Position numbers and translations under genes: made by a program. This document shows positions 34,736 through 52,002 of a stretch of 64,000 nucleotides of DNA, piece by piece; the first letter of the stretch is position 1, and each line of letters begins with the position of its first letter. The notes under the pieces are model-generated. The model had not been told where the DNA came from. It was given only the letters and a program-made list of their open reading frames with translations, and made no database searches. The stretch covers positions 62,001 through 126,000 of the forward strand of contig JAKARI010000001.1 in assembly GCA_021819245.1 (NCBI GenBank), given 5' to 3'. The DNA comes from Pseudomonadota bacterium. GTDB lineage: Bacteria > Pseudomonadota > Gammaproteobacteria > Acidiferrobacterales > Acidiferrobacteraceae.

Positions 34736-34811
34736 GCCCCGGTAGCTCAGTGGATAGAGCAGCCGCCTCCTAAGCGGCAGGTCGCACGTTCGATTCGTGT
34801 TCGGGGCACCA
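34736..34811 (+). tRNA. tRNA-Arg (anticodon CCT)
   Basis: 76-base cloverleaf. Acceptor GCCCCGG pairs with TCGGGGC (last pair G-U), D arm contains TAGCTCAGTGGATAGAGC, anticodon stem GCCGC/GCGGC with loop CTCCTAA, so anticodon CCT. The T arm has GTTCGATTC, and the 3' CCA is encoded. Its 3' 45 bases are the left copy of the attachment repeat. Confidence 0.97.
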
Positions 34812-34813
34812 TA
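34767..34813 (+). repeat. attL: left 47-bp attachment repeat
   Basis: Starts CTCCTAAGCGGCAGG within the tRNA anticodon loop and runs through CCA plus ATA. Identical over 47 bases to 51956-52002. One base upstream and one downstream the two copies differ, which fixes the limits. Confidence 0.95.
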
Positions 34814-34859
34814 AAATCAATGAGTTAAGCCATACACCCTCATATACAAACCTGCTTTT

Positions 34860-34878
34860 GCTGTAACGGCGCTGTAAC
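34860..34878 (+). repeat. Paired GCTGTAAC repeats near attL (candidate arm sites)
   Basis: GCTGTAAC at 34860-34867 and again at 34871-34878, start-to-start 11 bp. The same pair with the same 11-bp spacing occurs near attR (51832-51850). Symmetric placement inside both ends suggests integrase or excisionase arm-type sites. Confidence 0.5.
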
Positions 34879-34930
34879 TCGTCCGTAAAACGCGCTACAG
34901 TGCCCTTATAACAAACCTGGGGCAGGTATT

Positions 34931-35929
34931 ATGGCGTCGCTCATTCCGCGCAAGGGGCCGCACGGGCGGCGAGTCTGGCAGGCTCATATCCGACGCCGAG
35001 GCTATCCCACGCAAGTCCGCACGTTCGACACCAAAGCCGAGGCCGAGGCCTGGGCAGCCGTCATTGAATCGGAGATCGCTCGTGGAGTGTTTGTCTCACG
35101 AGTCGAGGCGGAACAAACAACCCTGGCGGACGCTCTCGATCGGTACCGCCGCGAGGTCTTGCCTGCCAAACGCAGTCAGCGCCAGATTGAGACAATGATC
35201 CGCCAGATGAGCGTCGACCGGATCGGCAGCCTCTCGCTCGCCGCCTGTACTTCATCGGTCATCGCCGACTACCGGGACCGTCGCTTGAAAAAGGGTGTAG
35301 CGGCACAAACCGCGAAACATGACCTAGCCCTCCTATCGCGCGTCTTTAATCTAGCCGCCAAGGAGTGGGGTATCGCCCTCCCATTCGGAAACCCCGTTTC
35401 GCTAGTCAAGATGCCGCGCATCGCCAACGCGCGCGATCGCCGCCTCGTGGACGACGAGGAAACACGACTCCTGGCGGCCGCGGCCACCTACGGCGGGGAG
35501 ATCGGCCCGATCATTACCTGGGCCATCGAGACGGCCATGCGCCGGGGGGAGATCGCCGCCATGCGCTGGGAGCATCTGGACAGGAAAGCGCGCGTCCTGC
35601 TCATACCAGAAACCAAGACCGGCACGCCCCGGCGCGTGCCGCTCTCCACGGCGGCTCTCGGGATCCTCGATACCCTCCCGCGCCGCCTGGATGGCAAGGT
35701 GTGGGGCATACGGCCGGACTCGATCTCCCAGGCCTTCGAGCGGGTCTGCAAGGCCGCTGGCATCGAAGGCCTGACCTTCCATGACCTGCGCCACGAGGCC
35801 ACATCACGGCTCTTTGAGAAAGGCCTGAACCCAATGCAGGTGGCCGCCATCACGGGACACAAGACCTTGCAGATGTTGAAGCGGTATACTCACCTGAGGG
35901 CCGAGGATGTGGTGGGGATGCTGGGGTAA
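34931..35929 (+). CDS. Tyrosine-family site-specific integrase
   Basis: Catalyses integration and excision at tRNA-Arg. 332 residues. An N-terminal AP2-like arm-binding region (GRRVWQAHIRRRGYPTQVRTFDT) is followed by a core-binding SAM-like domain (LADALDRYRREVLPAKRS) and the catalytic domain with ETAMRRGEIAAMRW (Arg I), [12 protein letters not shown] (His-x-x-Arg), [10 protein letters not shown] (His) and RYTHL (Tyr nucleophile). All catalytic residues are present. Transcribed away from attL with a TATAAC -10-like box at 34907-34912. Its last 150 bases are duplicated just downstream. Confidence 0.96.
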   Translation: MASLIPRKGPHGRRVWQAHIRRRGYPTQVRTFDTKAEAEAWAAVIESEIARGVFVSRVEAEQTTLADALDRYRREVLPAKRSQRQIETMIRQMSVDRIGSLSLAACTSSVIADYRDRRLKKGVAAQTAKHDLALLSRVFNLAAKEWGIALPFGNPVSLVKMPRIANARDRRLVDDEETRLLAAAATYGGEIGPIITWAIETAMRRGEIAAMRWEHLDRKARVLLIPETKTGTPRRVPLSTAALGILDTLPRRLDGKVWGIRPDSISQAFERVCKAAGIEGLTFHDLRHEATSRLFEKGLNPMQVAAITGHKTLQMLKRYTHLRAEDVVGMLG

Positions 35930-35966
35930 TTTTTTCGATTAGACTGATGGCTGAGGGGTGAAAAAA

Positions 35967-36137
35967 ATGCTATACGTTATTGTATGTAATAAAACAAAGC
36001 ACGGAGCAGCAATTGTGTCCGATTCGGCGCGCATCCCAAAGATTTTTCCCGATAAAGAATCCGCTATGGCATGGATTGCGGATAATCCAGATTTTAAGCA
36101 TTGTGAGCCGAAACCACAGGACAAGATTTGGAAATAG
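35967..36137 (+). CDS. Small AT-rich hypothetical protein (56 aa)
   Basis: ATG at 35967 with GAGGGG eight bases upstream; [20 protein letters not shown] leads into [20 protein letters not shown] and stops at 36135-36137. Base composition is markedly richer in A+T than its neighbours. It is wedged between the intact integrase and a second, broken integrase tail, so it probably arrived with another element. No family recognised; the fold looks like a small alpha/beta domain. Confidence 0.6.
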
Positions 36138-36140
36138 GGT

Positions 36141-36294
36141 TTTCACGACCTGCGCCATGAGGCCACGCCCCGGCCTTTTTGAGTGCGGGCTGAACCCGAT
36201 ACAGGTGGCCGCCATCACCGGCCACAAGACCTTGCAGATGTTGAAGCGGTATACTCACCTGAGGGCCGAGGATCTGGTGAGCATGTTAGGGTAA
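36141..36294 (+). pseudogene. Duplicate 3' fragment of the integrase gene
   Basis: Near-copy of the last about 150 bases of the integrase. One added T after GCC ACG CCC CGG CC shifts the frame, so HDLRHEA and [18 protein letters not shown] fall in different frames. The stretch encoding [17 protein letters not shown] is almost identical to the intact gene. It is a remnant of a second integrase from an earlier or tandem insertion. Confidence 0.85.
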
Positions 36295-36302
36295 GGCGGC
36301 GG

Positions 36303-36800
36303 TTATGTGGTGTTAACCGATTTGAGGTAGCCCCGCCAGAGCTCAAGACAGGTATGAGCAAGCTCCCGAACCTCGTAATTCTTATCGTCCGCTACAATCA
36401 GAAACCGCGCGTTACCATCGCAGTAACCGCCACGAAAATATGGACTATTTGGTGGACAGTACTCCCGCAGAATTGACACCTCGTGCGTCTGGCTAGCCGA
36501 TGTCAGCGTGTAATGTTTCGTGACGTTTGATACATCGCGGCAAACGCCAAGCTCTGGGTGTGCGCGCAGGAACGACGCCAAATCATCCTGGCAAACGGCT
36601 TTGGAATGCGTGAGCCAATCGGGCAGCATTGCGCACGACTGGAAGAATGCAAACGAGAAATCGAGGATGTCGTCCTTGTCACTGGCCCCCATGAGCCGCC
36701 CATACCAACGCTCCACGCGGGACCAATGAGCTTTCCACCCGCCTGTCTTGTGTAAACTACTAGGTAAAATCTTAGGTACCTGCGTGCGAACTTTACCCAT
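36303..36800 (-). CDS. Hypothetical protein, possibly HEPN-like
   Basis: 165 residues starting MGKVRTQVPKILPSS (ATG 36800, GGGGTG seven bases upstream); the frame extends further upstream but that part reads as non-coding. Mostly helical, with WSRVERWYGRLMGAS, LDFSFAFFQSCAMLPDWL, and CRDVSNVTKHYTLTS followed by a small beta-rich C-terminus. The N/S-x-x-K-H pattern after a helical bundle resembles proteins with HEPN-like domains, but this is a weak resemblance. Lower GC than the conjugation genes. Cargo of the element. Confidence 0.65.
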   Translation of the reverse strand: MGKVRTQVPKILPSSLHKTGGWKAHWSRVERWYGRLMGASDKDDILDFSFAFFQSCAMLPDWLTHSKAVCQDDLASFLRAHPELGVCRDVSNVTKHYTLTSASQTHEVSILREYCPPNSPYFRGGYCDGNARFLIVADDKNYEVRELAHTCLELWRGYLKSVNTT

Positions 36801-36904
36801 ATTTATCACCCCAGTTCCTTCTAGTCGGGCCACTTGGCAAGAGAACTGGATCCATTCTATGCAACCTCCCGGCAGGCTGACAACATCTGGCGAGGGGCGG
36901 CCTG

Positions 36905-37210
36905 TCACCGCAGGCCTGCGGCCTTGCACAGGTCGCGGCCCAGCGCATCGCGCATGGCCCAGACCTCGGCGGGCAGGCTGTCGCCGAGCTCCCGGGTGAT
37001 CCGTTCGCCCCGGCGCAGCAGCATCAGGAGCTCGCGCGCGGGTGTGGCGGGCGTGGTGGCCTTGCAACTCCGCCACCAGATGGCCACACGGATTACGTCG
37101 CGGACTGTGAGGCGTGACAGGATGTCCTCGAGGTCGTCCTGCGTCACCCCGTCAGAATCGAACCCCGAGACATGGTCGGCGGCGGCCAGAAGCGTGCGAA
37201 TGGGTGTCAT
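36905..37210 (-). CDS. Hypothetical element protein (101 aa)
   Basis: Helical, acidic N-terminal half (DGVTQDDLEDILSRLTVRDVIR), basic C-terminal half (LLMLLRRGERITRELG). No recognised domain. Two bases follow the DUF6573 frame and it reads in the same direction, so it is part of the 37849-to-36905 operon. Start ATG at 37210. Confidence 0.6.
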   Translation of the reverse strand: MTPIRTLLAAADHVSGFDSDGVTQDDLEDILSRLTVRDVIRVAIWWRSCKATTPATPARELLMLLRRGERITRELGDSLPAEVWAMRDALGRDLCKAAGLR

Positions 37211-37212
37211 GG

Positions 37213-37597
37213 TCAGTCCTCCACAGGCTGCATGATCGTGATCACCGGCTCGCCGGCATCACCGGGGCCGATAGCGAGCTTCAGGGTCACAAGGCGCGGC
37301 GTGATCGCGCGCCCGCCACGGGGCACGCGGTAAAGAGAAAAAAGCGTCTCGCTGCCTCCCCGCGCTGCCCGTGCGGCAAGGTGCGCCATCCAGAGCACGT
37401 CGTGAAGACGCCCGCGCTCGTCCTGGGTAGTCTGTCTGTGGCTGTCGGCGGGATCCCAGGCGTCGCAATCGGCCCAGGCCGCGGCCGTGAGTGCCACCGG
37501 GATCCGAAATCCGGCGTCCAAGGCCCTGCGCCGTCACATCCACCAGCACCCCGTCCTCGATGGCTTCCGCCCGGCTGTAGCGAAAAATGGTTTCCAT
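37213..37597 (-). pseudogene. DUF6573-like gene with a frameshift
   Basis: The first frame starts METIFRYSRAEAIEDGVLVDVTAQ at 37597. The second continues AGFRIPVALTAAAWADCDAW and RLHDVLWMAHLAARAARGG to the stop at 37213. Together they reproduce one common mobile-element family, but they lie in different frames. The switch is near 37516-37527, where one G too many (in CCTTGGACGCC, minus strand) would account for it. The 3' frame alone could be translated from an internal start. Real mutation or sequencing error cannot be separated here. Confidence 0.75.
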
Positions 37598-37600
37598 GGC

Positions 37601-37849
37601 TTAGCCCTCGCTGTCGGGGATGATCTGCACAGGCATGAGACACACCCCCTGCCCCCCATCCCTGCGGTACGTCATGACAGCGCGGACGCGCTTGCCATCG
37701 ACGACAAGCCAGTCCTTGTAGTCCTTCGGCGTCTTTCCCCATGCGGTACGGGTGATCTTGATTGGTTCCACCCCTGCGGATTGCTGAGGCTTGAGCCCCT
37801 CGCCTTTGACTTGGCTTCTGGCATCCTGCTTGCGCCCGTTCGTGTTCAT
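37601..37849 (-). CDS. Hypothetical element protein (82 aa)
   Basis: Basic, disordered first third (MNTNGRKQDARSQVKGEG), then a compact stretch IKITRTAWGKTPKDYKDWLV and AVMTYRRDGGQGVCLMPVQII with alternating beta pattern. First gene of a small minus-strand operon with the DUF6573-like frame three bases on. Function unknown; similar small proteins accompany relaxase modules. Confidence 0.6.
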   Translation of the reverse strand: MNTNGRKQDARSQVKGEGLKPQQSAGVEPIKITRTAWGKTPKDYKDWLVVDGKRVRAVMTYRRDGGQGVCLMPVQIIPDSEG

Positions 37850-38197
37850 GGTTCGTCTCCTGTTGTTGGTCCTGCGTCTTGCCTCGGCTCTCGCCCCTCA
37901 CGAGAAGCGCCGATAGCCGCGGGGTTTCAGCAAGCGGCAGACGGCATGACGCCCCGCGGTGTGTGCGGGGTGGCGTGACGGATGCAAGCGCGCGCCGCGG
38001 CCAGGCGCCTGGGGGCGGGAGTCGAGGCGTGCAGGACCAAGGGGACGGACAAAGAACGGGCGCGGATGCCGGTCCCGAGAGACGTAAGGCGCTCCTTGCT
38101 TTTTTGCAGACGCGGGTATTGAATGAGCCGCGACAGAACAACGACAAGCGGACAGGTGTTTTTGCTTTAGCGCCTCGGCTGCTAATTAGGAGGGCAC
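37850..38197. other. Divergent intergenic region in the element
   Basis: 348 bases separating the minus operon (to 37849) and a plus gene (from 38198). Holds an inverted repeat GCCCCGC/GCGGGG around a GGTGTGT loop (near 37951-37975) and AGGAGG at 38189-38194. No gene. Confidence 0.4.
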
Positions 38198-38416
38198 GTG
38201 AACGCACTGCGTATGCTGTTTTTGTCTATTGCGGGAGTGATTCTATTAGGGATTGGATTAACCGGGTTCGACCGAGTTAGTTGGGTCTTGTATGTCCCCT
38301 TCGCATTTCTGACCTTCGCCGGTATCACAGGAATTTGCCCCGGCTTGATCTTCTGGAGCAAGATGGGATTCAAGAACACACCCATGGCCTGTGACCTTCC
38401 CAAACAAAAACCCTAA
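38198..38416 (+). CDS. Small two-helix membrane protein (DUF2892/YgaP-like)
   Basis: 72 residues: helix MLFLSIAGVILLGIGLTGF, helix VLYVPFAFLTFAGITGICPG, then a short polar tail. The pair of helices with GICP resembles DUF2892, the membrane part of YgaP-type rhodanese proteins. GTG start after AGGAGGGCAC. Alone on the plus strand inside the element, with lower GC. Likely cargo. Confidence 0.65.
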   Translation: MNALRMLFLSIAGVILLGIGLTGFDRVSWVLYVPFAFLTFAGITGICPGLIFWSKMGFKNTPMACDLPKQKP

Positions 38417-38508
38417 ACGGCCGTCCATGGCCGCCCCCTATCGCATGCGTCACGGTAAGGAAGCCCGGCACTCTCGCGGGCACTAGGGGTTACGGAGTGC
38501 GCCGGGCG

Positions 38509-38754
38509 CTATGCGCGCACCGCCTGCGCGAGCCGCGCATAGTCCTCGCCGAAATGCTCGATGAGCCACGAATGCAGCAGCTCCAGGTCGACCCGCGCCC
38601 TGGTGCCCTGCAGGGACAGTGGGAGTCCCCTGCCCGCCTGGATCAATGCCTCGATCTGCCCCGGTTCGGGCAAACCCCCGCAGAGTTCGATGGTCGTAAA
38701 CCAGCCCTCCGCGGCGATGGCCCTGGCCTCCACATCCCGCGCCGCCGCACTCAT
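38509..38754 (-). CDS. Hypothetical protein (81 aa)
   Basis: MSAAARDVEARAIAAEGWFT leads into IELCGGLPEPGQIEALIQAG and LELLHSWLIEHFGEDYARLA; helical. The ATG at 38754 overlaps the preceding stop as ATGA, so it is translated together with the 127-residue protein upstream. A longer reading upstream is shadow. No domain recognised. Confidence 0.65.
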   Translation of the reverse strand: MSAAARDVEARAIAAEGWFTTIELCGGLPEPGQIEALIQAGRGLPLSLQGTRARVDLELLHSWLIEHFGEDYARLAQAVRA

Positions 38755-39134
38755 GACGGCTTCCTCAGGGTGGCGAGCTCCCGCTCGATCGTGGGCCAGT
38801 CGTGGCAGTCGTGCCCGCACTGCGGGCAGGGCTTGACATGGGCGGCGATCACCGCGCGCTCGCGGGCCTTCCGGAGCCAGGCGTCCAGCACGGTAATGAG
38901 CCCCGCCTCAGTCATCCAGTAGACGAGCTCGCCGAGCGCGCACAGCGCCGATTCCGGGCCGAGTGGGGAGTCATGCAGGACCCAGAAGAGGCCCGCCGCA
39001 TCCCCCGGCTGGGCGTCACGGCCGGCATATTCCATGACAGCCCTGCACCCCAGCATGATGACCTCTTGATGCTGGAACTTCGGGTTGGTGTGTGTGGGGA
39101 TTTCGGGTTCGTGGGCAACGCTTTGATCAGCCAT
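38751..39134 (-). CDS. Hypothetical protein with a C-terminal zinc knuckle
   Basis: 127 residues. The mostly helical middle (PLGPESALCALGELVYWMTE) leads to HVKPCPQCGHDCHDW, a CxxCxxxC cluster that could bind zinc. Strong AGGAGG seven bases before the ATG. It is the first gene behind the structured leader at 39148-39286, which may control it. Coupled to the next gene. Function unknown. Confidence 0.7.
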   Translation of the reverse strand: MADQSVAHEPEIPTHTNPKFQHQEVIMLGCRAVMEYAGRDAQPGDAAGLFWVLHDSPLGPESALCALGELVYWMTEAGLITVLDAWLRKARERAVIAAHVKPCPQCGHDCHDWPTIERELATLRKPS

Positions 39135-39147
39135 GATGGCCTCCTGT

Positions 39148-39286: not shown

Positions 39287-39290
39287 ACGC

Positions 39291-39622: not shown

Positions 39623-39769
39623 TCAGCGCCGCCGGATCCGACTAAAAACGATCATCAGCGCCGCGCCCACGGCGAGGGCCACCCAGGGGCTTACGTGGTA
39701 CTCCCGCATGAGCCGCCACACCCCCGTATAAATGAGCGCGTGCGCAAGGACGACAAAAAGGGCGTGCAT
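39623..39769 (-). CDS. Small membrane protein (48 aa)
   Basis: ATG at 39769, overlapping the stop of the 103-residue gene (TGATG). Sequence MHALFVVLAHALIYTGVWRL, then a second hydrophobic helix WVALAVGAALMIVF and RIRRR tail. Two helices, positive-inside tail. Position in the mobilization operon is the main support; no family recognised. Confidence 0.55.
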   Translation of the reverse strand: MHALFVVLAHALIYTGVWRLMREYHVSPWVALAVGAALMIVFSRIRRR

Positions 39770-40080
39770 CAGCGCCCCGCCGTCAAGGCCTGGCGCGGCC
39801 GGCCGCGGCGTTTTGTTACATGCCGAAAGTGCTGGTCCGCTAGGAGAAGCACCCGGGAAAGCGCCTTGATTTCCTTACGCAGCTCGGCGATCGCCTGGCC
39901 GTGGCGCTCGACATCGAGCGGCCCCCGCGGCCACCATGTGCCCGTGGCAAGCGGTGCGAGCTCGCCGTGGGCGTTCGCGCGCAACAGTGTGTACGCAGTC
40001 TGGTAAAACGTGCGCGCCACATCATCCGCGCTCACGTTATTCCGCTTCCTGACTCCTGTCTTTGTCTGCATCATTTCCAT
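39769..40080 (-). CDS. Hypothetical mobilization-operon protein (103 aa)
   Basis: MEMMQTKTGVRKRNNVSADD begins a basic helical protein with GPLDVERHGQAIAELRKEIK and a basic tail HVTKRRGRPRQALTAGR. It follows the coupling-protein gene, overlapping its 3' end, where R388-like systems hold accessory DNA-binding factors (TrwA-like). A similar relaxosome role is inference from position and charge only. Longer upstream start rejected as it lies deep in the coupling-protein gene. Confidence 0.6.
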   Translation of the reverse strand: MEMMQTKTGVRKRNNVSADDVARTFYQTAYTLLRANAHGELAPLATGTWWPRGPLDVERHGQAIAELRKEIKALSRVLLLADQHFRHVTKRRGRPRQALTAGR

Positions 40081-42145
40081 GCTCCTCATCCGGATTGGTC
40101 GTGTCATTCTCCTCCCCCGGTACCGGGGTGATAAGCCGCGCCGGCGGGCCCGCGGGGGCCACAAGCCCCGCCGCATCGACGATGTGGCCCGCGGTCTTCA
40201 TAACCTCAAGCACCGCACCCACCCCGGCGGGGGCCACGGCGCCCGCGGCAGCATCGAGGGCGATCTCGAGCAGGTCTGGGATGGGGCCCTCGTCGTGACT
40301 CCCTACCGGGCGCGAGTTTTCTGCGGGCCCGGGCGTGGCGACTGGCACGGCCTGCGGCAGCTTCTGCGGGGGCTTATTCGTCCCCGTGACGGGCGGCTTG
40401 GGCGGCTCGTCATCCGCGAGCTCTGGAAGGTCTACCTTGGGCGGCTTCGCCCCCCAGATGGGCCGGTTGTAGCCGCGGGCAAGCCAGGCGGCGGGTTTCA
40501 GCATGGACCGCTGTGGGCTCGTGTCGATGAACGGGATCCGCACCATTGAGCGGATGTCGCCAGATATGAAGACAATGCGAGCGCCCGCGCGGGTGACATT
40601 GAGATCGTTCTGAAAATCCGACGGCAGCATCAAAGGTTCGCGCACGCGCTGATACTGGCTCGTGTGCTGGGCGGCCTGGTCGCCCATGGACGGCATGGAG
40701 ACCGACCGGGAGTACCGCTCGACCTCATGTTCGCCCACAAGCGTCGAGGCCCATTTTTGCTCTTCGACGGACTGGAGCTGGCATATGATTTTGGTGGCGC
40801 ATTGCCCTTCCCAGATGGTCGCGGTGTCCTTGTCGTAGGTCTTTCTGACCTGGGCGAGACTCTGTATACCCAGGACCACCCGCACGCCCTTGCTGCGGGC
40901 GGCCTCGAGCGCCTGGGTGATGGACGGCACCTGCCCGGCTTGTGACACCTCGTCGAGGACCAGCCAGATACGCCGCTCATGGGGTTTGCAGTCCGGCATG
41001 TCGAGGATCTGGCGCATGCACTGCTCGATGACACTGGATGCGTATGAGCGCGATGTGCGCTTGTCGCCGTTGGAATACCCGATGATGACCGTGGGAGGGG
41101 TCTTGCCAGAGAGCCAGTCGCGCACGGACCAGCGGGGCGCGTTACTGCGTAACGCATGGTCGGCAACACCCAGATCAATCACGGGCACCACGGCCCCCGC
41201 GAGATTCGCAAGGAAAGATGCGGTGGTCTTGCTGTCGGGACCACCTGCAAGGAACGTCGCGGCGACCGGGTTTTCCTGCTGCACGATGCCCTTCAAGATC
41301 CGGAACTCGGCGAGTGCCTGGCTCAGAACAACGGCCGCATCCTTTATGGTCCAGGTGCCCGCTTTCTTTTTTTGCAGGTACTTGAGTACACCAACGAGCA
41401 GCGCCTGGGCGCCCTGGGCCCACATGACCTCTTTATCGGGGAGGGGAATGAGGGTTTCGGCCAGGCTTTGCGCATCGGTATGACGATCAATATCCGCTCC
41501 CAGGATCCACCGCGCGGACCGGGCATCAAAAGGGCTCAGCAAGGTGAAATCCTTGCCCATCTGCCCCTGCCACCGCTCCTGGAAATCCCCCTTGAAGCTG
41601 AATATCAGCAGCTTGTCTCCGCGCGCAGCGGCCGTGCGCAGGATGGGCCAAAGGGCAGTGGTCTTACCCCCGCCGCTCGAGCCGATCAAGAGGATGTGGC
41701 GACACTCCAGGGTCTCCGGGATCCGGGATGTTCCCACGGTCACCCCGGGATTCTCCCCCCGGGCCACAGGGGAGAGGAGCGCGCGTTGCGACTCCCGCGT
41801 GCTCCACCAGCGCACGCCGCGCACATGGTGCTCGTTCGGGCGGGTGGCGAGGATCCACAGTCCGACCGCGCCCGCGAGGGCGCCGGCTGCGGCCAGCGCG
41901 ACCGGGATCCACCCGCCGGGCCCGGGGATGATTCCGTCACTGTGACGCAATACAGCCCAGGCCGCGCGCCACAGGGGAGACCAGGGGGCCCACACACGCC
42001 ACGGGGAAAAAAGGCGGTACCAGATCTCGAGGCCACCAAAGTAGCCGCCCAAGGCGCCTGCGGCGGCGCCGATTGCGGCCAGGATGGGACGCTCGGATGT
42101 CGCCCAGTTGATGTCGTTCTGTGCGTTCGTTGGTTTCTGTGCCAT
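40037..42145 (-). CDS. Type IV coupling protein (TrwB/TraD-like)
   Basis: Inner-membrane DNA pump linking relaxosome to a secretion channel. 702 residues: two N-terminal membrane helices (residues 18-40, 80-105), Walker A GSSGGGKTT near 152, the TraD/TrwB motif LLIFSFKGDF, IWLVLDEVSQAGQVPS as Walker B, and arginine-finger region VVLGIQSLAQVRKTY. The last 150 residues are low-complexity and acidic, a TraD-like tail. Six bases after the relaxase stop. Present although no secretion genes are found in the element. Confidence 0.93.
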   Translation of the reverse strand: MAQKPTNAQNDINWATSERPILAAIGAAAGALGGYFGGLEIWYRLFSPWRVWAPWSPLWRAAWAVLRHSDGIIPGPGGWIPVALAAAGALAGAVGLWILATRPNEHHVRGVRWWSTRESQRALLSPVARGENPGVTVGTSRIPETLECRHILLIGSSGGGKTTALWPILRTAAARGDKLLIFSFKGDFQERWQGQMGKDFTLLSPFDARSARWILGADIDRHTDAQSLAETLIPLPDKEVMWAQGAQALLVGVLKYLQKKKAGTWTIKDAAVVLSQALAEFRILKGIVQQENPVAATFLAGGPDSKTTASFLANLAGAVVPVIDLGVADHALRSNAPRWSVRDWLSGKTPPTVIIGYSNGDKRTSRSYASSVIEQCMRQILDMPDCKPHERRIWLVLDEVSQAGQVPSITQALEAARSKGVRVVLGIQSLAQVRKTYDKDTATIWEGQCATKIICQLQSVEEQKWASTLVGEHEVERYSRSVSMPSMGDQAAQHTSQYQRVREPLMLPSDFQNDLNVTRAGARIVFISGDIRSMVRIPFIDTSPQRSMLKPAAWLARGYNRPIWGAKPPKVDLPELADDEPPKPPVTGTNKPPQKLPQAVPVATPGPAENSRPVGSHDEGPIPDLLEIALDAAAGAVAPAGVGAVLEVMKTAGHIVDAAGLVAPAGPPARLITPVPGEENDTTNPDEEHGNDADKDRSQEAE

Positions 42146-44983: not shown

Positions 44984-45057
44984 GGCGCGTGAAGACGCGC
45001 CACGCAATCCACCCGGACGGGTGCGATTGTGTGGTTAGGCTACCCCTCGGGGTAGCC
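44984..45057 (+). other. Candidate origin of transfer (oriT) with MOBF-type nic
   Basis: Three inverted repeats in a row: GGCGCGT/ACGCGCC (44984-45001), CACCCG/CGGGTG (45010-45023) and GGCTACCCC/GGGGTAGCC (45038-45057). The second hairpin is followed directly by CGATTGTGTGGTTAGG. In R388 (recalled) a GGTGC hairpin arm is followed by GTATTGTCT and the nick, and F has GTGTGG around its nick. By analogy the cut falls between 45032 and 45033 on the plus strand, with the stb-like operon entering first. Between divergent relaxase and leading genes. Confidence 0.65.
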
Positions 45058-45186
45058 GTCGAGACTCGGGGTAAAGCGGCAGTGGAACGCTCACAAACGC
45101 GCGAAAACGGGAATGCCAGCTTGCGGCTTCACAGACCGCGCGTTTTTTGTACCTTGGAGATACGTAACCACGTGACAAAAAGCGTC

Positions 45187-45225
45187 GGCGAGCGAAAAAG
45201 CGCGACGGCGAGCGATGGTGAGCGA
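45187..45225 (+). promoter_or_regulatory. Phased 9-bp direct repeats, candidate operator
   Basis: GGCGAGCGA at 45187-45195 and 45207-45215, GGTGAGCGA at 45217-45225. Start distances are 20 and 10, i.e. whole helical turns on one DNA face. They lie 35-73 bases upstream of the StbA/TraK-like gene, as StbA boxes do in R388, so likely autoregulatory sites. Confidence 0.5.
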
Positions 45226-45259
45226 TTCGCCAACGCAAGCCAGCGGATAGGAGACGGAT

Positions 45260-45601
45260 ATGAAGCGACGAGCAAAGCGTCTGACGGCGCACGTTGCCCC
45301 TTACCGGGCAGCGATCAGCGAGGCCCGCCGGGCCGGGTTCACATGGGGGGAAATTGCCGCAGCGCTGGGAGTTAAAGGGGAGCATGCAGGGGATAGGGTG
45401 CGATGGGCGGTGAGGGAGTGCAGGTACGAAGTCCCGCAGGTGCCGCTCCCGGATCCGGAAGATCTTGGAGCGGCAGTGCCGGCAGCCAGCCCGGCCGCGC
45501 CGCACTCGGTCCCTGTGGCTGCGGCTCCGGAAACCGCCCAGGCCTCGGGCAACGAGCAAGACGAGATCGAAAACGTGATCAACAAACATCTAATCAAGTG
45601 A
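45260..45601 (+). CDS. StbA/TraK-like DNA-binding protein
   Basis: 113 residues. The basic N-terminus MKRRAKRLTAHVAPYRAAIS runs into a helix-turn-helix-like segment (EARRAGFTWGEIAAALGVKG), then a Pro/Ala-rich linker and an acidic tail (GNEQDEIENVINKHLIK). Length, charge and position next to oriT, followed by a ParA-like and a membrane protein, match StbA-StbB-StbC (IncW/IncN) or TraK-TraL-TraM (IncP). Probably binds the phased repeats upstream. Confidence 0.65.
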   Translation: MKRRAKRLTAHVAPYRAAISEARRAGFTWGEIAAALGVKGEHAGDRVRWAVRECRYEVPQVPLPDPEDLGAAVPAASPAAPHSVPVAAAPETAQASGNEQDEIENVINKHLIK

Positions 45602-45611
45602 GGTGGCAAAG

Positions 45612-46340
45612 ATGAAGCACATCTACATAAGCGACGGCGACAAGGGTGGCGTGGGCAAGTCAATGCTCTCCGCTACGATCTGCGAGGCGCTGCTTGCGCG
45701 CGGGGAGAAGATCGCCCTGGTCGAGGGCGACGATTCACAACCCGACCTGGCGTTGCGGTACCAGAACGACCCCGACGTGCTGTTGGGGGTCATGCCGCTC
45801 GCGATGGCTGGGGACGCTAACCGGGCAGTGAGCCGGTTCGGAGAATGGCTCGAAGCCAACCTCCCGAATGAGGTGGTTATTAACCTCCCAGCCGGGGCAG
45901 CCAAGACGCTGAACGAACATGCGGAGTTGGTGCGCCAGGTGGCAGACGCATTGGGTTACACAATAACTGCGTTCTACTCATTGGGGAAGGGTGACACACC
46001 CATGGCGGGACTTGTGAAAAGTATGGAGTCTGGGCTGCTGGCGCACGTCGATCCGGCGCGCAGAGTCATAGTGTACCCCGCATTTCAGGGGGACCCGCAC
46101 GATTTCGTCTGGTACGACCACAAGGCCCGAAAAACTTTTCAAGGCCGTGAGATCGTTCTGCCAGCCCTGGACAACCGCGATGTCGTCAAAAAGATGCTTT
46201 TGATGCGCGGTCGCCTGTCCGCGCTGGCATCGAGCGCCCCGCCTGCTGGCTGGATGATAGTAGACAAACTCAACCTTGCGCGGTGGCTAAAGTCCGCTGT
46301 TACCGCGGTCGAACCAGCACTAAATATCGAGGATGACTGA
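45612..46340 (+). CDS. ParA/MinD-like ATPase (StbB/TraL-like)
   Basis: 242 residues with deviant Walker A DKGGVGKSML near the N-terminus, then EGDDSQPDL (A' motif) and INLPAGAAKTLN. In StbB/TraL families this ATPase affects plasmid positioning and transfer rather than classic partition. ATG 45612 preferred (GAGG eight bases upstream) over an in-frame GTG at 45603. The end overlaps the next gene by eight bases. Confidence 0.8.
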   Translation: MKHIYISDGDKGGVGKSMLSATICEALLARGEKIALVEGDDSQPDLALRYQNDPDVLLGVMPLAMAGDANRAVSRFGEWLEANLPNEVVINLPAGAAKTLNEHAELVRQVADALGYTITAFYSLGKGDTPMAGLVKSMESGLLAHVDPARRVIVYPAFQGDPHDFVWYDHKARKTFQGREIVLPALDNRDVVKKMLLMRGRLSALASSAPPAGWMIVDKLNLARWLKSAVTAVEPALNIEDD

Positions 46341-46953
46341 CATGACGGAAGATCAAAACAACGAGGCCCCGCACGGGGACTTATCCCCGCGCGACGAGGC
46401 ACTGGAGATGGTGCCACCCGACCGCCGCGTAGACGTGCTAAAGGCAGGCGCCGACGCCGGTCTCACATCAAATGAAGACGCAGCGTGGCTCCTGTTGGGC
46501 CACGCGCTCGCGACCGATGCGGCACGCAAACAGACATTGGATATGGGCCTCGCTGTTGCTCGTGCAGCCCAGGATGTGGCGGACATGCTGCATGCCATGC
46601 AGACAGCAACGGCCAGCATCGCGCCGGAGGTACTGAAAGGCGCAGCCGCCGCCGGCCGCGACACCGCCGGAATGATCCGAACCGAGTCGGCGCAGGTGAC
46701 AGAAATGCTCAAGGCCGCCGTGGCGGAGGCGGCCAAGGGCGCGGCGGCCAGACTGGCAAAGGCGGCCGCCGCGAAAGGCCCAGACATCATCGAGGAATGG
46801 AAATGGGAACTGGCGCGCACTGTCCGCGCGCAGACGAACAAGTCGTCGATGCTGTTTGCTGTCGTCGGCGCCGCGCTCGCAATCGTGTGCGTGGGACTTG
46901 GCATACTGCTTGTCAAGGGTTTCCCGGCGTTTTTTGGCCTGCAATTGTTGTGA
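46333..46953 (+). CDS. StbC/TraM-like protein with C-terminal membrane helix
   Basis: 206 residues. Helical, Ala-rich coiled-coil body (MGLAVARAAQDVADMLHAMQ, AAVAEAAKGAAARLAKAAAA) and one membrane helix (LFAVVGAALAIVCVGLGIL). Third gene of the leading-region operon, where StbC or TraM sits. The residue order suggests it bridges the ParA-like partner to the inner membrane. Homology not certain. Confidence 0.65.
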   Translation: MTDMTEDQNNEAPHGDLSPRDEALEMVPPDRRVDVLKAGADAGLTSNEDAAWLLLGHALATDAARKQTLDMGLAVARAAQDVADMLHAMQTATASIAPEVLKGAAAAGRDTAGMIRTESAQVTEMLKAAVAEAAKGAAARLAKAAAAKGPDIIEEWKWELARTVRAQTNKSSMLFAVVGAALAIVCVGLGILLVKGFPAFFGLQLL

Positions 46954-47281: not shown

Positions 47282-47884
47282 TCATGGCGCTATCGCGCAC
47301 TCTTCCATGGCCGTCTGTGGGGACCAGTGGGTAATACGACTCACACGATCAAATATCTGTGCCAGCGGATTGTTTAGCTGCGAATCCGCCGAAATCCGTG
47401 CCCCTGGCATTTTTGATTGCGATCGCTTAGACATGACCACGGCAAGCACCATTCCCACGAGCGCCAACACAATAAGTCCCGGCACCGTGTTGGCGAGCAT
47501 GTGCCCGTACATATGTCCCGCCGCCCGCAACCGAACATTCATGGCGAACGCCGCTAATTCCCGGTCATTTGTTTGGAAAGGCGCCTCGACTCTCAGCCGC
47601 AGCTGTTCCGCGTCGGTCGGATGTTTACTGTGCCAATGGGCCCAAAAAACAAACCGCGTCATGGTCAGGGATTCTGTGTAACGAAGATGGCCGTTAATGA
47701 GATCCCTTAAGGCAGCATATAGCGGATGATCCAAGCCCCGTCCACTCTTAAGAAAGTAGTCGCGTATCTCCTGGCGCAAATCAAACAGCTCATCGCGGGT
47801 CTTATCTAAGAGGCTTGGTTTATAGACAAACCGCCATGACAATAAGGTCAGTAAAATGGCAATGCCAAGCATGATGTCATTCAT
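47282..47884 (-). CDS. Membrane protein of unknown function (200 aa)
   Basis: N-terminal membrane helix (MLGIAILLTLLSWRF), a helical cytoplasmic part with RDELFDLRQEIRDYFLKSGR and RYTESLTMTRFVFWAHWHSK, then a second helix (VPGLIVLALVGMVLAVVMS). Lower GC than the transfer genes. ATG overlaps the stop of the other membrane gene by four bases, so the two are one operon and may form a complex. No known domain. Confidence 0.7.
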   Translation of the reverse strand: MNDIMLGIAILLTLLSWRFVYKPSLLDKTRDELFDLRQEIRDYFLKSGRGLDHPLYAALRDLINGHLRYTESLTMTRFVFWAHWHSKHPTDAEQLRLRVEAPFQTNDRELAAFAMNVRLRAAGHMYGHMLANTVPGLIVLALVGMVLAVVMSKRSQSKMPGARISADSQLNNPLAQIFDRVSRITHWSPQTAMEECAIAP

Positions 47885-48327
47885 ACATGTGATCCTCGGT
47901 CCTGCCGCGGAGTAGCGCCCGTCTCCGTCAAGCCACTTGTGCTTCGGTAGGCGTCCCCTCCCTCAACCAACTGTTGAAAGCGCGCCTTTTCCTTGATAGC
48001 GCGTTTCTTTCCTTGTCGCTCCCACAACCAAGCAATAGACGGAATGATACCCCATAGGGATTTCACTAAGGTACTGGTGGCCGAAATAACCGCGGCGGAA
48101 TGTCCCATAGCCGTACCGAGCCCCACCAAAATCATATGGAGAGCATAAAGGGCTGCGCCCAGGATAACTATCAGGCCGGCGAGATCCATCCATGCGTTAA
48201 AGCGATCCGCCCGCAGCCTCAGTTTCCTAATTTCTATCTCGAAATCGTGCGGATCCATCCGTTTTGCCCTGGTTGCCTCGCGGCTGATCAAAACAGCGTA
48301 GCATACGGAACTGAGCACCGCCGCCAC
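47881..48327 (-). CDS. Membrane protein of unknown function (148 aa)
   Basis: Two central hydrophobic helices (DLAGLIVILGAALYALHMILV and VISATSTLVKSLWGIIPSIAWL), a charged N-terminus and a basic C-terminus (ERQGKKRAIKEKARFQ). The start may instead be the internal ATG of MDPHDFEIEIRKLRLRAD. Partner of the 200-residue protein. A cargo or immunity role is conceivable but unsupported. Confidence 0.6.
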   Translation of the reverse strand: MAAVLSSVCYAVLISREATRAKRMDPHDFEIEIRKLRLRADRFNAWMDLAGLIVILGAALYALHMILVGLGTAMGHSAAVISATSTLVKSLWGIIPSIAWLWERQGKKRAIKEKARFQQLVEGGDAYRSTSGLTETGATPRQDRGSHV

Positions 48328-48815
48328 CAGATCATCTGGGGGTGGGATGGACCTTCACAACTCATCGGGTTCTTGCCCATGACCTCAGCTGTGTTGCCCC
48401 TGGCTCTTTAGCCGCCGTTGGCCCGCGCGGACGCCCGCGCGGGGGTACATAGTATGGATCATTTACAGTCACCGCGGGTGCCGGGGCCCCGGGCGGGTCC
48501 AGATCCGGATCCCCTGTAGCCTCCCTTGGCAACGCTGGTTCAGCAGGGAAGCGAAGGCCGGTACCGTCACCTCACCGTGACGCTATCTACCACTCCAAAC
48601 CCCTGGCTCCAGACCTCAACCCACCACCAACCCTGGCAGACCGGGCGGGCGGGGCCGGAACGGCCCAAAAACGCCCGCCCTAGACCCGCGTAAGCGGGCA
48701 CGGGTGGCGCCGCTTGCGGCGCGGGGGATGTTGTTGCCGGGGCGGCGGGCCCGAAGCCCGCCCGCCTCCGGCCAGGAATCTCCTGAAAGAGATTCCTGAA
48801 ATATCCTGCTCGCGC
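48328..48815. other. Hairpin-rich region, candidate replication origin part
   Basis: No gene. Perfect inverted repeats: CGTCAC/GTGACG (48565-48582), CCCGC/GCGGG (48685-48698), GCGCCGC/GCGGCGC (48707-48722), GCGGGC/GCCCGC (48745-48761) and AGGAATCTC/GAGATTCCT (48774-48797). They lead straight into the iterons. Such stems are common at single-strand initiation sites. Confidence 0.5.
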
Positions 48816-48893
48816 GGGCGTGGGTTACACGGGGGCGGGCGTCGGCTACACGCCGCGGGCGTGGGTTACACGGGGGCGGGCGTGGGTTACACG
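48816..48893 (+). repeat. Four iterons, 20-21 bp pitch
   Basis: 16-bp unit GGGCGTGGGTTACACG at 48816-48831, 48857-48872 and 48878-48893, with a two-mismatch copy at 48837-48852. Starts are 21, 20 and 21 bases apart, two helical turns. The last two lie inside the 3' end of the RepC-like gene and encode its repeated RVTHAR tail. Likely binding sites for that initiator. Confidence 0.7.
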
Positions 48894-49670
48894 CCCTCCA
48901 CTGTCCAAATCCACTCCGACCCGGTCACCCCGGACGATGATCCCCAGCCCGGCGAGTTCGGCGGCATCATGCCGCACTTCCCTGCGCCGATTCCTCATCC
49001 CCACGCTGTCTCTGGGGTCAATTCCAACCCCGACCAGCAGGGTATCGAGCCGCCACCCGCCGATTGGGATATCCCGGTGGGTAAGCACCAGCCGGGCCAG
49101 CGCCTGGGTCACCCCATAGCTCAAGCGCGCCAGGGGAGATGGGTCGTAGTGCAGTAGGATGGGGTCACGCTCGAGCCAGGCACGATAGGTTGGCGATATC
49201 TCTGCCCGATAAAGATGGCGGGCCTCGCCTGTGAACGGGTTGATTCTGGTCGCCGGGCTTGGCACGAGCCGGTCGAGCAGGCCGTCGACTGTGGGCAGGC
49301 CCGCACCCGGAACCTGCACACAGATGACAGCGCCCCGGAGATCGGCGGCCAGCGTGGCAAGCCCTTGCCCGCTGTAGCGACTATGCGCACTCATCGTGCG
49401 GCGCACGTTGTGCGGATCTATCAACAACTGGAGCGCGCCATTCTCGAGGACCCGTTTTTTCTCCGCATGGAAGCAAATGGCATCGAGCAACAACGCGTGC
49501 TGTTGTCCAAGTTTGCCTGTGATCGTGCCGCCCCCGTAGGGGGTTGCAATCTCCCGCGTCTGGAAGGTCGGCGCCCGTGTCGGCTGGAAGACCTGCAAGC
49601 GTGCCAAACGCGACACCGTCGTAGGCATAATGCGCTCGGCCCAGGGGATGATACGGTCCTCACCACTCAT
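48846..49670 (-). CDS. RepC-like replication initiator
   Basis: 274 residues. ATG 49670 (MSGEDRIIPWAERIMP) overlaps the helicase stop by 11 bases. LARLSYGVTQALARLVLTHR and GMRNRRREVRHDAAELAGLG match the winged-helix part of IncQ RepC/TrfA-type initiators in pattern; similarity is moderate. Ends in RVTHARPRVTHARGV, which is the iteron sequence being translated. With the helicase upstream it forms an IncQ-like repA-repC pair. Confidence 0.7.
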   Translation of the reverse strand: MSGEDRIIPWAERIMPTTVSRLARLQVFQPTRAPTFQTREIATPYGGGTITGKLGQQHALLLDAICFHAEKKRVLENGALQLLIDPHNVRRTMSAHSRYSGQGLATLAADLRGAVICVQVPGAGLPTVDGLLDRLVPSPATRINPFTGEARHLYRAEISPTYRAWLERDPILLHYDPSPLARLSYGVTQALARLVLTHRDIPIGGWRLDTLLVGVGIDPRDSVGMRNRRREVRHDAAELAGLGIIVRGDRVGVDLDSGGRVTHARPRVTHARGV

Positions 49671-50631
49671 CGTCGCCTCCCGCTCCGTCTTTGCTGATCT
49701 CCACCACTTTTTTCCGCCTTGATGGTCGCGTCGCGCTAGCCAAGCGATCCTCTGCGGATGGATCCACAAAAAGCGTCCCGCGCGGATCCATCGTCAAAAT
49801 GCGCGCGGGTTGTTCCGGTCCTTTGCTTATCTTCGAGCCCCGTACGATGCGCGACGTGCGTTGGTCGATGCCCGCTCGCTCGCACTCCAACTCCGCCGGC
49901 CGCCGGATTACCCAAACCGCACGAGCGGCGGATGCCAGGGCGGTCCCGCCGCGCCCCGCCTGATGGTCATCGCGCGCATTCAGTAAGCTATCCTGCGAGG
50001 TGTGATGAACGGCAAGAATGGATCCGCCCCCACATCCCTGCGCAAGCCGAATCAAAAGCCGCATGAAGACATCCAGGTGTCCGTTGTCTGACTCTGACAG
50101 TGAATGGAACATCACGAGGGGATCGAGGATCGCAAGCCGCGCGCCATTGAGCCGTTCACGCATCGCACCCACCCATTCTGTTTCAAGGGGCTCATCGGCC
50201 TGTCGGCTTGCCCGCAGGAGCGGCACGCGCATGCCGCCGAGGGCCACGATGTCCATCTGCTCCAGCGCGACGTCGATCCGTGCCGTGGATACGCCATGCT
50301 CAACCAGGGAAATCCGCAAATTCGCGAGCGCCCGATGATGATCGTCCAGGTCGTCTTCTCCCAGCAGCGCAACCACCCGCCCCCGCGACGATGGGGCATC
50401 GAGCGCGCCGCCGGCGATGGGCAGACCGCCGGCAACACCAAGCGCGGCTTGCAGGGCAAACCCCGTTTTGCGTGATCCGTCAGATCCAATCAGTAAACCG
50501 ACCTGCCGAGCTGGCAGACCGGGAAGCACCCAATCGATGGGCGGGGGCGCGCTGCGGGCAAGTAGGGAAGCCGCGGCGACCGCCTGCGGCAAGACTGTTT
50601 TTTGCTTCATCAGGCCCGCGTGCATTCTCAT
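49660..50631 (-). CDS. RepA-like replicative helicase (AAA_25/RecA-type)
   Basis: 323 residues. WVLPGLPARQVGLLIGSDGS with RKTGFALQAALGVAGG is the P-loop region; VVALLGEDDLDDHHRALANL, RLAILDPLVMFHSLSESD (Walker B) and GGSILAVHHTSQDS complete a RepA hexamer-type fold. The P-loop reads GSDGSRKT, with Arg where Gly is usual. The ATG overlaps the AlpA-like stop (ATGA). C-terminal 50 residues are basic and probably flexible. Confidence 0.8.
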   Translation of the reverse strand: MRMHAGLMKQKTVLPQAVAAASLLARSAPPPIDWVLPGLPARQVGLLIGSDGSRKTGFALQAALGVAGGLPIAGGALDAPSSRGRVVALLGEDDLDDHHRALANLRISLVEHGVSTARIDVALEQMDIVALGGMRVPLLRASRQADEPLETEWVGAMRERLNGARLAILDPLVMFHSLSESDNGHLDVFMRLLIRLAQGCGGGSILAVHHTSQDSLLNARDDHQAGRGGTALASAARAVWVIRRPAELECERAGIDQRTSRIVRGSKISKGPEQPARILTMDPRGTLFVDPSAEDRLASATRPSRRKKVVEISKDGAGGDDEW

Positions 50632-50861
50632 CCCCGCCCGCGAGGCCGCCCGACCGTCGCCGCCGCCGGCTCGCCGATTTGCTCGACCTGCTCGGTCCGT
50701 GAGCGAATCCAGTTGTCAATTTGTTCCCCGGTCCATCTGCGGTTGCGTCCAATCCGTATCGGCCGCGGAATTTCTCCCCGAGCAAGCATTCGCTCGATGG
50801 TCCGATGCGCTCCCAGGCCCCGCCGAACCCATTCCTGAATGTCGTACAGTTGTTCACCCAT
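50628..50861 (-). CDS. AlpA/HTH_17-type excisionase or regulator
   Basis: 77 residues. LYDIQEWVRRGLGAHRTIERM, then GEIPRPIRIGRNRRWTGEQID is the helix-turn-helix wing pattern of AlpA/excisionase proteins. Located at the non-integrase end of the element and heading the rep operon, so it may both promote excision and regulate replication. Start ATG at 50861; a basic RPRGRG end. Confidence 0.75.
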   Translation of the reverse strand: MGEQLYDIQEWVRRGLGAHRTIERMLARGEIPRPIRIGRNRRWTGEQIDNWIRSRTEQVEQIGEPAAATVGRPRGRG

Positions 50862-50995
50862 GTGCTTCTCCTGCCATGTTGATACATGCCAAGTGTCGTC
50901 CTTGCCTTTTCACTTCGATACGGCTAATTTCATCGGGAGGGTGACGAGGTAGTCCGTACCGTATACCTCGCGAACGAAGGGGGGTAGGGAGGGGT

Positions 50996-51838
50996 GTGAA
51001 AGACGACGTGGAAATGTTGATTGCAAAGCTGTTCCGCGCGCCGCGAGGGGGACAAGTCACCCCACAGATGGTCGCCTCGCGCGCACGGCGGCTGCTCCCC
51101 GCCGGCGACGCGTTCCGCACGACGCGCTGCCGGGCTGCGCGCATCGCGCGGGCGCGGCGAGAAATCGAGTGGCAAGAAATGGATCGGCTAGGTAAACAAA
51201 TCGCCCGCGAAGTCGATCTCGCGCCAATGGAGTCGCCGCGGTTAACGCCAGAAAATGAAGGGGTACTGCTTCAATTAAGCCAGGCTCTCATGTGGGGCTG
51301 GGGGCGCCACCTCGCTGATCCTAACCCACGCCCGCCGCTGTGCTTTTTTTGTCACCAGCCCGCGGCCCACGTCGTGCGTGGTGCCACCCCGGTGTGTGCG
51401 CAGCACGTTCCGCGCACCGCCGACGCCCAGCGCGCGGCGCGACTTGTGCGATGGGCCGGGAGTCCGGCTCGGCTGCATGAGATGGTGCTCCACCAGGCGG
51501 CGGAGATTCGCGCGACCGCCAGCAACGCGGAGCTTGAAAATGTGCTCGCCGCTGCGTGCACCGACCCTGTGACCCGCAGGTGGTGGTCCTTGCAGCCGGA
51601 TCTGGAACTGCCGATTCGCATCCTCGCACATCGGCACGTGGAAGCCCGGTACCACGCCTGGGTAAATGAGCAACGCATCGCCGGTGGCCGCGCCCGCGCG
51701 GTCCCTCGGCCTGTCCTCGAGCGTGCTAGAAAAAAAGTGCGGGGCGGCATGTCGCGGGCGGCAGCCGCCCGCGCGGTCGGTGTCAGCGAAGCGACGCTGC
51801 GGCGGCGCTGGCGCCGTGATCCCGTGCCTGTGCTGTAA
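50996..51838 (+). CDS. Putative DNA-binding protein with zinc knuckle and C-terminal HTH
   Basis: 280 residues. The N-terminal helical part begins MKDDVEMLIAKLFRAPRGGQ. CFFCHQPAAHVVRGATPVCA in the middle has a CxxC plus Cys/His pair. The C-terminus is a Hin/resolvase-type helix-turn-helix (MSRAAAARAVGVSEATLRRRW). GTG start next to GGGAGGGG. Divergent from the rep operon and last before attR, so a regulator of excision or replication is likely. No close family recalled. Confidence 0.65.
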   Translation: MKDDVEMLIAKLFRAPRGGQVTPQMVASRARRLLPAGDAFRTTRCRAARIARARREIEWQEMDRLGKQIAREVDLAPMESPRLTPENEGVLLQLSQALMWGWGRHLADPNPRPPLCFFCHQPAAHVVRGATPVCAQHVPRTADAQRAARLVRWAGSPARLHEMVLHQAAEIRATASNAELENVLAAACTDPVTRRWWSLQPDLELPIRILAHRHVEARYHAWVNEQRIAGGRARAVPRPVLERARKKVRGGMSRAAAARAVGVSEATLRRRWRRDPVPVL

Positions 51839-51850
51839 TCCTGCTGTAAC
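51832..51850 (+). repeat. Paired GCTGTAA repeats near attR (candidate arm sites)
   Basis: GCTGTAAT at 51832-51839 and GCTGTAAC at 51843-51850, again 11 bp apart, mirroring 34860-34878. The first overlaps the stop codon of the preceding gene. Confidence 0.5.
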
Positions 51851-51875
51851 GCGGGGGCGTTTTAAGACATTTTGA

Positions 51876-51927
51876 GGCATTAAGGGGCATTGGGATAGCG
51901 TTATAAATCATGCCATTAGATGCCATT
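51876..51927 (+). repeat. Two pairs of 10-bp-phased repeats before attR
   Basis: GGCATT at 51876-51881 and 51886-51891, then ATGCCATT at 51910-51917 and 51920-51927, each pair 10 bp apart and the two pairs inverted (GGCAT/ATGCC). The region between gene end and attR is AT-richer. Candidate binding sites for the AlpA-like factor or integrase. Confidence 0.45.
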
Positions 51928-51955
51928 GACTGCCTGAGAAAGCCAATTTCTGGGA

Positions 51956-52002
51956 CTCCTAAGCGGCAGGTCGCACGTTCGATTCGTGTTCGGGGCACCA
52001 TA
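51956..52002 (+). repeat. attR: right 47-bp attachment repeat
   Basis: Identical to 34767-34813. Only the anticodon loop to CCA part of tRNA-Arg is present, so this is not a second tRNA gene. Marks the right end of the element. Confidence 0.95.

Follow-up and report, generated by a model that had tools for sequence, protein, structure and literature searches.

A tRNA-integrated mobilizable element in an Acidiferrobacter-type genome that joins a MOBF relaxase, its own coupling protein and an IncQ-like replicon

Within a 64,000-nt stretch of contig C43 from an Acidiferrobacter-type genome (2.25 Mb in 54 contigs, 91.3 % complete), hereafter the window, to which all element coordinates refer, the gene for tRNA-Arg(CCT) harbours an integrated element of 17,189 bp delimited by two copies of a 47-bp direct repeat. 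Read from the tRNA, the element begins with the genes for an integrase, an integrase remnant, several small open reading frames (ORFs), a type IV coupling protein (T4CP) and a MOBF relaxase, followed by a predicted origin of transfer (oriT) and a StbABC-like operon. Next come a two-gene cargo, a set of iterons, the genes for a RepC-like initiator, a RepA helicase, an AlpA-like factor and a further helix-turn-helix (HTH) protein, and finally the second repeat copy (Table 1). The key reading frames are all intact. As argued below, this integrative and mobilizable element (IME) is genuine and probably functional, and it belongs to a variant that recurs but has seldom been described.

Table 1. Features of the element and of the chromosomal type IV secretion system (T4SS) of its host
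Feature	Coordinates	Strand	Evidence or remark
tRNA-Arg(CCT)	34736..34811	+	integration target, intact on attL side; ARAGORN
attL, 47-bp direct repeat	34767..34813	+	spans anticodon loop to 2 nt beyond tRNA end
Tyrosine integrase, 332 aa, intact	34931..35929	+	Phage_integrase E 1.8e-26; phrog_1 2.2e-71
Integrase 3'-end remnant, 88 % copy	36175..36294	+	repeat family D1
DUF6573 protein	37213..37521	-	Pfam 6.2e-18
Small conserved ORF	38751..39134	-	downstream of T4CP; relatives in two G005 elements
Small ORF adjoining T4CP	39769..40176	-	65 % in G013
TrwB/VirD4-type coupling protein, 702 aa	40037..42145	-	TrwB_AAD_bind 1.8e-65; PDB TrwB 5.7e-26
MOBF relaxase-helicase, 926 aa (ATG 44932)	42152..44932	-	TrwC 2.6e-74; MobF model
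Predicted oriT core, hairpin then ACACAATCGCACC	45020..45060	-	pattern match, conserved position
Short tandem repeats between oriT and stbA	45177..45226	.	candidate Stb-binding sites
StbA-like small protein	45260..45601	+	named by position; relatives at same place
StbB-like ParA-type ATPase	45603..46340	+	CbiA 7.1e-7; 65-74 % in four relatives
StbC-like protein	46333..46953	+	named by position
Two-gene cargo	47282..48327	-	47282-47884 matches candidate defence model 1TM-TIR, PADLOC 6.8e-10
Iteron array, ~4 x 20/21 bp, putative origin of replication (oriV)	48813..48895	.	overlaps repC 3' end
RepC-like initiator (ATG 49670)	48846..49670	-	plasmid homologues; initiator fold
RepA, hexameric-helicase type (RSF1010 family)	49660..50631	-	AAA_25 3.2e-20; PDB RepA 9e-16
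AlpA/excisionase-like HTH protein, 77 aa	50628..50861	-	overlaps repA start; HTH_17, phrog
280-aa protein, C-terminal HTH, possible regulator	50996..51838	+	HTH_23 8.6e-4, below cut-off
attR, second 47-bp copy	51956..52002	+	repeat comparison
Divergent VirB2-VirB10-like T4SS cluster and two further genes	G000:C54:41785-50435 (L112:3785-12435)		PF03743 match to VirB10-like gene

The original prediction had drawn the boundaries at a perfect 47-bp repeat in tRNA-Arg(CCT), with an integrase at the tRNA end and an AlpA-like factor at the other, and this outline holds to the base. The attL copy is the 3' half of the tRNA gene, which is the sole tRNA within the window, and the integrase ORF starts 118 bp beyond it. 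The AlpA-like ORF lies 1.1 kb from attR, with the 280-aa HTH ORF in between, and matches HTH_17 (E 3.2e-5; 24.5 bits, below the Pfam cut-off of 27) as well as the phrog family 'excisionase and transcriptional regulator' (1.7e-6). The G+C content of the element is 63.3 %, versus 64.6 % for the remainder of the window. The search for an empty site covered ten stretches around tRNA-Arg(CCT) in other genomes of the same genus (L080-L089). In five of these, the tRNA is followed by the LigB-type gene that stands at 54246 in the window, at a distance of 1.2 kb (G006), 2.3 kb (G002), 5.4 kb (G009), 6.8 kb (G003) or 7.8 kb (G005); the corresponding distance in the window is 19.4 kb, or 2.2 kb when the element is subtracted. 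In the remaining five stretches, some of which end at a contig end, the LigB-type gene was not seen. Because the intergenic bases gave no match in blastn, and hence no base-exact attB, the empty site is documented at the level of gene order, at which G002 and G006 have a related element-free site. Integrase-like pieces at tRNA-Arg(CCT) also occur in G005 and G009, and the site has therefore been reused.

For mobilization, the element encodes a relaxase that scores 247.3 bits on the NCBIfam MobF model (cut-off 100) and matches both TraI and TrwC structures in the PDB. Its residues Y19, Y32, Y33, H156, H171 and H173, which we take to be the catalytic tyrosines and histidines, are invariant across 15 relaxases. 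With the neighbouring gene matching the TrwB family, the predicted pairing of a MOBF relaxase with a T4CP stands. The oriT pattern consists of a hairpin, whose stem bases covary by eye, followed by ACAC[AC]NN[CT]GCACC, as seen in 21 regions upstream of relaxases; its reverse complement presumably resembles the nic region of R388. An earlier pattern was discarded, having 0 matches in the window. The present pattern occurs there once only, 100 nt ahead of the start codon of the relaxase gene, with an expectation of 0.13 per 64 kb. Across 24 loci, it lies at most 700 nt upstream of the relaxase on the same strand in 17, a count that is not independent, because the pattern was derived after inspecting the 21 upstream regions; it lies elsewhere in one and is absent from six, in two of which the contig begins <300 bp from the relaxase. 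In 21 further loci, the pattern is upstream in three and elsewhere in three. The operon predicted to be StbABC-like is upheld for StbB, an ATPase with a family match, while StbA and StbC keep their names by position. No homologue of the chromosomal T4SS genes described below was found in the window, and no VirB family was found among the ORFs scanned, in keeping with the original claim that the element has no secretion channel. Classification as an integrative and conjugative element (ICE) was rejected, no channel genes having been found among those ORFs. The element thus combines an integrase and flanking att sites with a relaxase, a predicted oriT and no detected mating-pair genes, as an IME does.

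The replication genes likewise bear out the predicted repA-repC-like pair. The sole PDB sequence match of RepA is 1g8y, which we take to be RepA of RSF1010, and its matches to phrog primase/helicase families are confined to the helicase part. The RepC-like protein is 39-40 % identical to a protein adjoining RepA in small plasmids (5-9 kb), and its model has, by VIA-align, the fold of plasmid and chromosome-II (iteron-binding) initiators, the nearest folds being RctB, pi and RepE54; RSF1010 RepC was not singled out. The start codon of repC lies inside the end of repA, and repA overlaps the AlpA-like ORF by 4 bp; judged from these overlaps, repC, repA and the AlpA-like gene are arranged as in a coupled operon. 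Iterons at the 3' end of repC recur in six of seven other repC loci (L101, L045, L102, L103, L104 and L035). Two hallmarks of an IncQ replicon, a RepA helicase and a RepC initiator with iterons, are therefore both present.

The comparison set comprised 60 genomes, including 14 of the genus and 18 of the family. Relaxase searches matched 14 of the 60, or 13 after removal of G058, whose match (E 8.5e-7) covers ~150 residues of the helicase part. Integrase, stb, relaxase, T4CP and repC genes occur together in the window, in G012 (C29), in G026 (C69) and in G005 (near 3.02-3.05 Mb, ~23 kb, with the relaxase match in pieces); the element ends in the latter three are undefined. Among 12 tRNAs tested near relatives, a second partial copy exists for four (Glu, Leu, Thr and Arg), which could delimit elements of 11 to 47 kb; the one at tRNA-Arg in G026 is without a relaxase match. 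Behind the tRNA-Glu (L029/L096) and tRNA-Leu (L098/L027/L099) elements of G005, a second integrase follows right after the second repeat, which is tandem accretion. These two elements also have two coupling-protein-like matches each. T4CP and relaxase loci exist in Betaproteobacteria and Acidithiobacillus as well, and the relaxase-coupling part is therefore wider than the genus. In three betaproteobacterial loci (L147, L149 and L150), a MOBF relaxase comes immediately after a T4CP, a weak integrase match lies nearby, and the fetched stretch yielded no R751- or F-type VirB homologue; these loci are likely the same kind of element outside the acidophiles. A search for relaxase relatives in viral contigs gave nothing informative.

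Searching the rest of the host genome for VirB genes gave a positive result: contig C54 carries a divergent T4SS cluster of about ten genes, with the set VirB2-B3-B4-B5?-B6-B8-B9-B10, located between bioC and rpoH-ftsX-ftsE-ftsY (named by eye). Neither a T4CP nor VirB11 nor a relaxase was seen beside it. The trio by which a T4SS can be recognized is present, namely a VirB4 ATPase, a VirB2 pilin (28.9 bits, above the Pfam cut-off of 27.9) and a VirB10-like protein (33.3 bits, 5.4e-8, just below the cut-off of 35). The candidates for VirB3, B5, B6, B8 and B9 fit in size and order and have no usable family or hhalign match. All 14 PDB matches (E ≤1e-3) of the VirB4-like model, a poor AlphaFold model with a mean pLDDT of 55.6, are chains of the R388 T4SS, and the top titles name TrwK/VirB4; hhalign gave 95.9 % for Maritalea TraC, 8.3 % for F TraC and 1.8 % for R751 TrbE, and a PDB sequence search with the VirB4-like alignment returned 0 matches. 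The P-loop of this protein reads GKG, the usual motif being GK[ST]. An ordinary VirB4 in the genus was rejected, since PF03135 matched 0 of 14 genomes (3 of 60 overall, including G026) and PF19044 0 of 14, with profiles of limited sensitivity: the chromosomal VirB4 escaped PF19044 in all 14 genomes, and PF03743 picked up the chromosomal VirB10 locus in just four of them.

The C54-type VirB4-like gene is present, in one copy each, in all 14 genus genomes and in 17 of the 18 from the family. Overall, 20 of 60 genomes have it, the three beyond the family being two from the same order and one from the same class. Its omega of 0.09-0.11 versus four species indicates purifying selection; the values for B5 and B6 were left unused, as their frames have spurious N-terminal extensions. 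bioC and/or rpoH (again named by eye) stand beside the cluster in 16 of the 17 family loci, the exception being G001, which has neither and whose contig ends downstream; the loci outside the family showed no such neighbours. The C54-type cluster is also the only T4SS found in the host genome and in the one-contig genome G005, the bearer of several elements of the kind described here. The same cluster, its genes annotated only as hypothetical proteins, lies on a 107-kb plasmid of Candidatus Tenderia electrophaga (L235, CP013100.1, 19403-30461), preceded by a weak TraG-like ATPase (TraG-D_C match) and ParB genes; the TraG-like ATPase suggests a conjugative ancestry of this T4SS.

Among the accessory genes, the small conserved ORF at 38751-39134 has relatives (38-39 %) in two G005 elements, where their place is immediately upstream of the T4CP. 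A doubled integrase C-terminus resembling that of the window also occurs in an element of G001 (L111, 13218-13679), and the 3' end of the cargo unit has an 88 % identical counterpart in G012 (L083), situated 1.65 kb from tRNA-Arg(CCT).

In combination, these data make it very probable that the element is an IME with an IncQ-like replicon that passes through a plasmid-like circle and borrows its channel from outside. Excision, replication, nicking and transfer are what we infer from the gene content. The integrase and the AlpA-like factor would recombine attL with attR to give a 17.2-kb circle and a restored tRNA site; through RepA and the RepC-like initiator at the iterons, and with the help of StbABC, the circle would be kept as a temporary plasmid; the relaxase would nick the predicted oriT; and the TrwB-type coupling protein would dock the relaxosome on a mating channel of external origin. 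The oriT, the iterons, the RepC fold and the recurrence of the type thus lend support to the original proposal that this is a mobilizable element which becomes plasmid-like once excised. Several results weigh against this interpretation. A circular free-plasmid form among the contigs was rejected, the terminal overlap being 0 in 12 of 12, and neither an excised circle nor transfer was seen; 8 of the 12 tRNAs near relatives have no second copy within the fetched stretch; and neither StbA nor StbC has a curated family match in Pfam or NCBIfam. The RepC-like protein has no Pfam, NCBIfam or usable PDB sequence match, and because Foldseek alone returned 0 matches for its model at E ≤0.001, the fold evidence comes from the second aligner, VIA-align. 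IncQ plasmids need a RepB primase, and no primase family was found among the ORFs scanned; the replicon is therefore filed as IncQ-like rather than IncQ, and a primase from the host or a helper may be required for it to replicate autonomously. Finally, given that the host genome is ~91 % complete, the assembly may lack a helper. Immobility would follow if the element were a decayed ICE or integrated plasmid whose mating-pair genes have been lost, as the integrase remnant, a sign of some decay or accretion, might suggest; the intact key frames, the perfect att repeats and the same module set in several relatives make this improbable. Older events can also leave tRNA fragments, and the repeats might then be unrelated to integration. 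However, the integrase adjoins the tRNA and attL, the tRNA and the LigB-type gene lie close together in relatives with the flank order conserved, and other elements follow the same logic, so that the repeat is not attributable to chance and this explanation is extremely improbable.

As to the channel used by such an IME, the prospects that passing conjugative elements or plasmids move it, as in classical IME hitchhiking, appear to us evenly balanced. IMEs generally use co-resident helpers, as the available portions of two publications state (PMC5704250, PMC11389934). Genes of the type IVB secretion system kind occur at other loci of two genus members (DotH/IcmK, 5.9e-34, in G009 at L113; TrbI, 2.6e-14, in G001 at L114), and G002 has a TrbI match at a locus apart from the resident T4SS; yet no such system was found, by searches of modest sensitivity, in the host genome or in G005. 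Besides the TrbI-type gene, L114 encodes a 994-aa protein; both L113 and L114 are separate from the core T4SS. A more tentative possibility is that the element uses the resident chromosomal T4SS and carries its own T4CP because that T4SS has none. The conservation of the VirB4-like gene throughout the genus under purifying selection and the lack of any second detected T4SS in the host or G005 speak for it, as does the fact that the single T4CP match of the host genome is that of the element. Of nine T4SS-positive genomes without a relaxase, seven have no T4CP match, and the other two (G002 and G009) have weak ones only, in 868- and 989-aa frames. Relaxase and T4SS co-occur in 11 of the 60 genomes, with the relaxase alone in two, the T4SS alone in nine and neither in 38; this table is, however, confounded by kinship. 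Moreover, G015 and G034 have a relaxase and no match to the resident T4SS, among 21 named genomes outside the group that bear the relaxase, one has a weak VirB4-like match and the other 20 have none, and G026 bears such elements but also a usual VirB4. Acidithiobacillus ferrivorans and FK3.bin90, neither of which has a match to this T4SS, carry loci with T4CPs that are 40-45 % identical to that of the element; the notion that the T4CP of these elements is specific to the resident T4SS was accordingly rejected. The deviant P-loop of the resident VirB4 also weighs against this possibility. The resident T4SS itself may serve protein secretion or DNA uptake, the latter being a serious rival for its native role, because the gene set equals that of Helicobacter pylori ComB apart from VirB5 and VirB7. 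The largest share of our expectation thus goes to a passing conjugative element, a clearly smaller one to the resident T4SS and the remainder to other channels. The broader scheme, that Acidiferrobacter has a fixed VirD4-less T4SS and that a family of tRNA-integrated, replicon-bearing MOBF elements supplies the missing coupling protein and relaxase, we consider rather unlikely. If true, conjugation would be split between the host, which gives the channel, and the element, which provides coupling, nicking and copying, and no autonomous conjugative element would be needed. As a candidate helper, a genus-wide VirD4-less T4SS is relevant to the movement of such elements in genomes with no detected conjugative element.

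A literature search of titles and the starts of abstracts, with few subscription journals covered, recognized neither an IME with MOBF relaxase, T4CP and RepA/RepC nor a C54-type T4SS, and, by word search, the main text of a 2022 paper on Acidiferrobacter mobile elements lacks 'relaxase', 'T4SS', 'type IV secretion' and 'conjugative'. Among known systems, the DNA-transfer and replication (Dtr) region of R388 has the order stbABC-oriT-TrwA-TrwB-TrwC. In the element, too, the Stb operon, oriT and the MOBF relaxase gene are neighbours, and there are homologues of TrwB and TrwC; it differs in being integrated, in that no Trw mating-pair genes were found in it and in that no TrwA homologue was named. 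The IncQ layout of RSF1010, with RepA helicase, RepC initiator and ~20-bp iterons, is matched by the element's RepA, RepC-like initiator and iterons, whereas no RepB was found in the element and its iterons lie at the repC 3' end. The chromosomal cluster is comparable to Helicobacter ComB, whose DNA uptake machinery is described in the accessible part of a 2025 review (PMC12857230) as a VirB2-B10-like set without VirD4 and VirB11, and to other VirD4-less T4SSs; it too has VirB2-VirB4, VirB6 and VirB8-VirB10-like genes with no VirD4 or VirB11 seen, but its sequence is very divergent. With the IMEs of a review by Guedon et al. (2017; PMC5704250), as far as the portion available goes, the element shares an integrase, att sites in a tRNA gene, its own relaxase and oriT, and the lack of a mating-pair system. 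According to that portion, the canonical IMEs known include none with MobF or MobH, and a VirD4-type coupling protein is given for just two IMEs, both from Streptococcus and with MobC, whereas the element joins a MOBF relaxase, a VirD4-type coupling protein and a RepA/RepC-type replicon. The contention that this is not a textbook type thus holds against the review and is tempered by precedents. TcpA-type coupling proteins occur in Streptococcus IMEs, and GIsul2 is listed with RepA and RepC, although it lacks a relaxase and a coupling protein, has TrbJ/K/L and sits in guaA (both from the same portion of PMC5704250). An IME of Acidithiobacillus caldus SM-1, from a 2013 publication available in part (PMC3826726), is likewise integrated in an acidophile and has only a relaxase and a coupling protein, the comparison being made on those traits alone. 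The combination is therefore a variant of the IME in which each module has a precedent, and a recurrent class with a MOBF relaxase, its own T4CP, partition genes, an IncQ-like replicon and a conserved oriT blurs the line between IME and plasmid.

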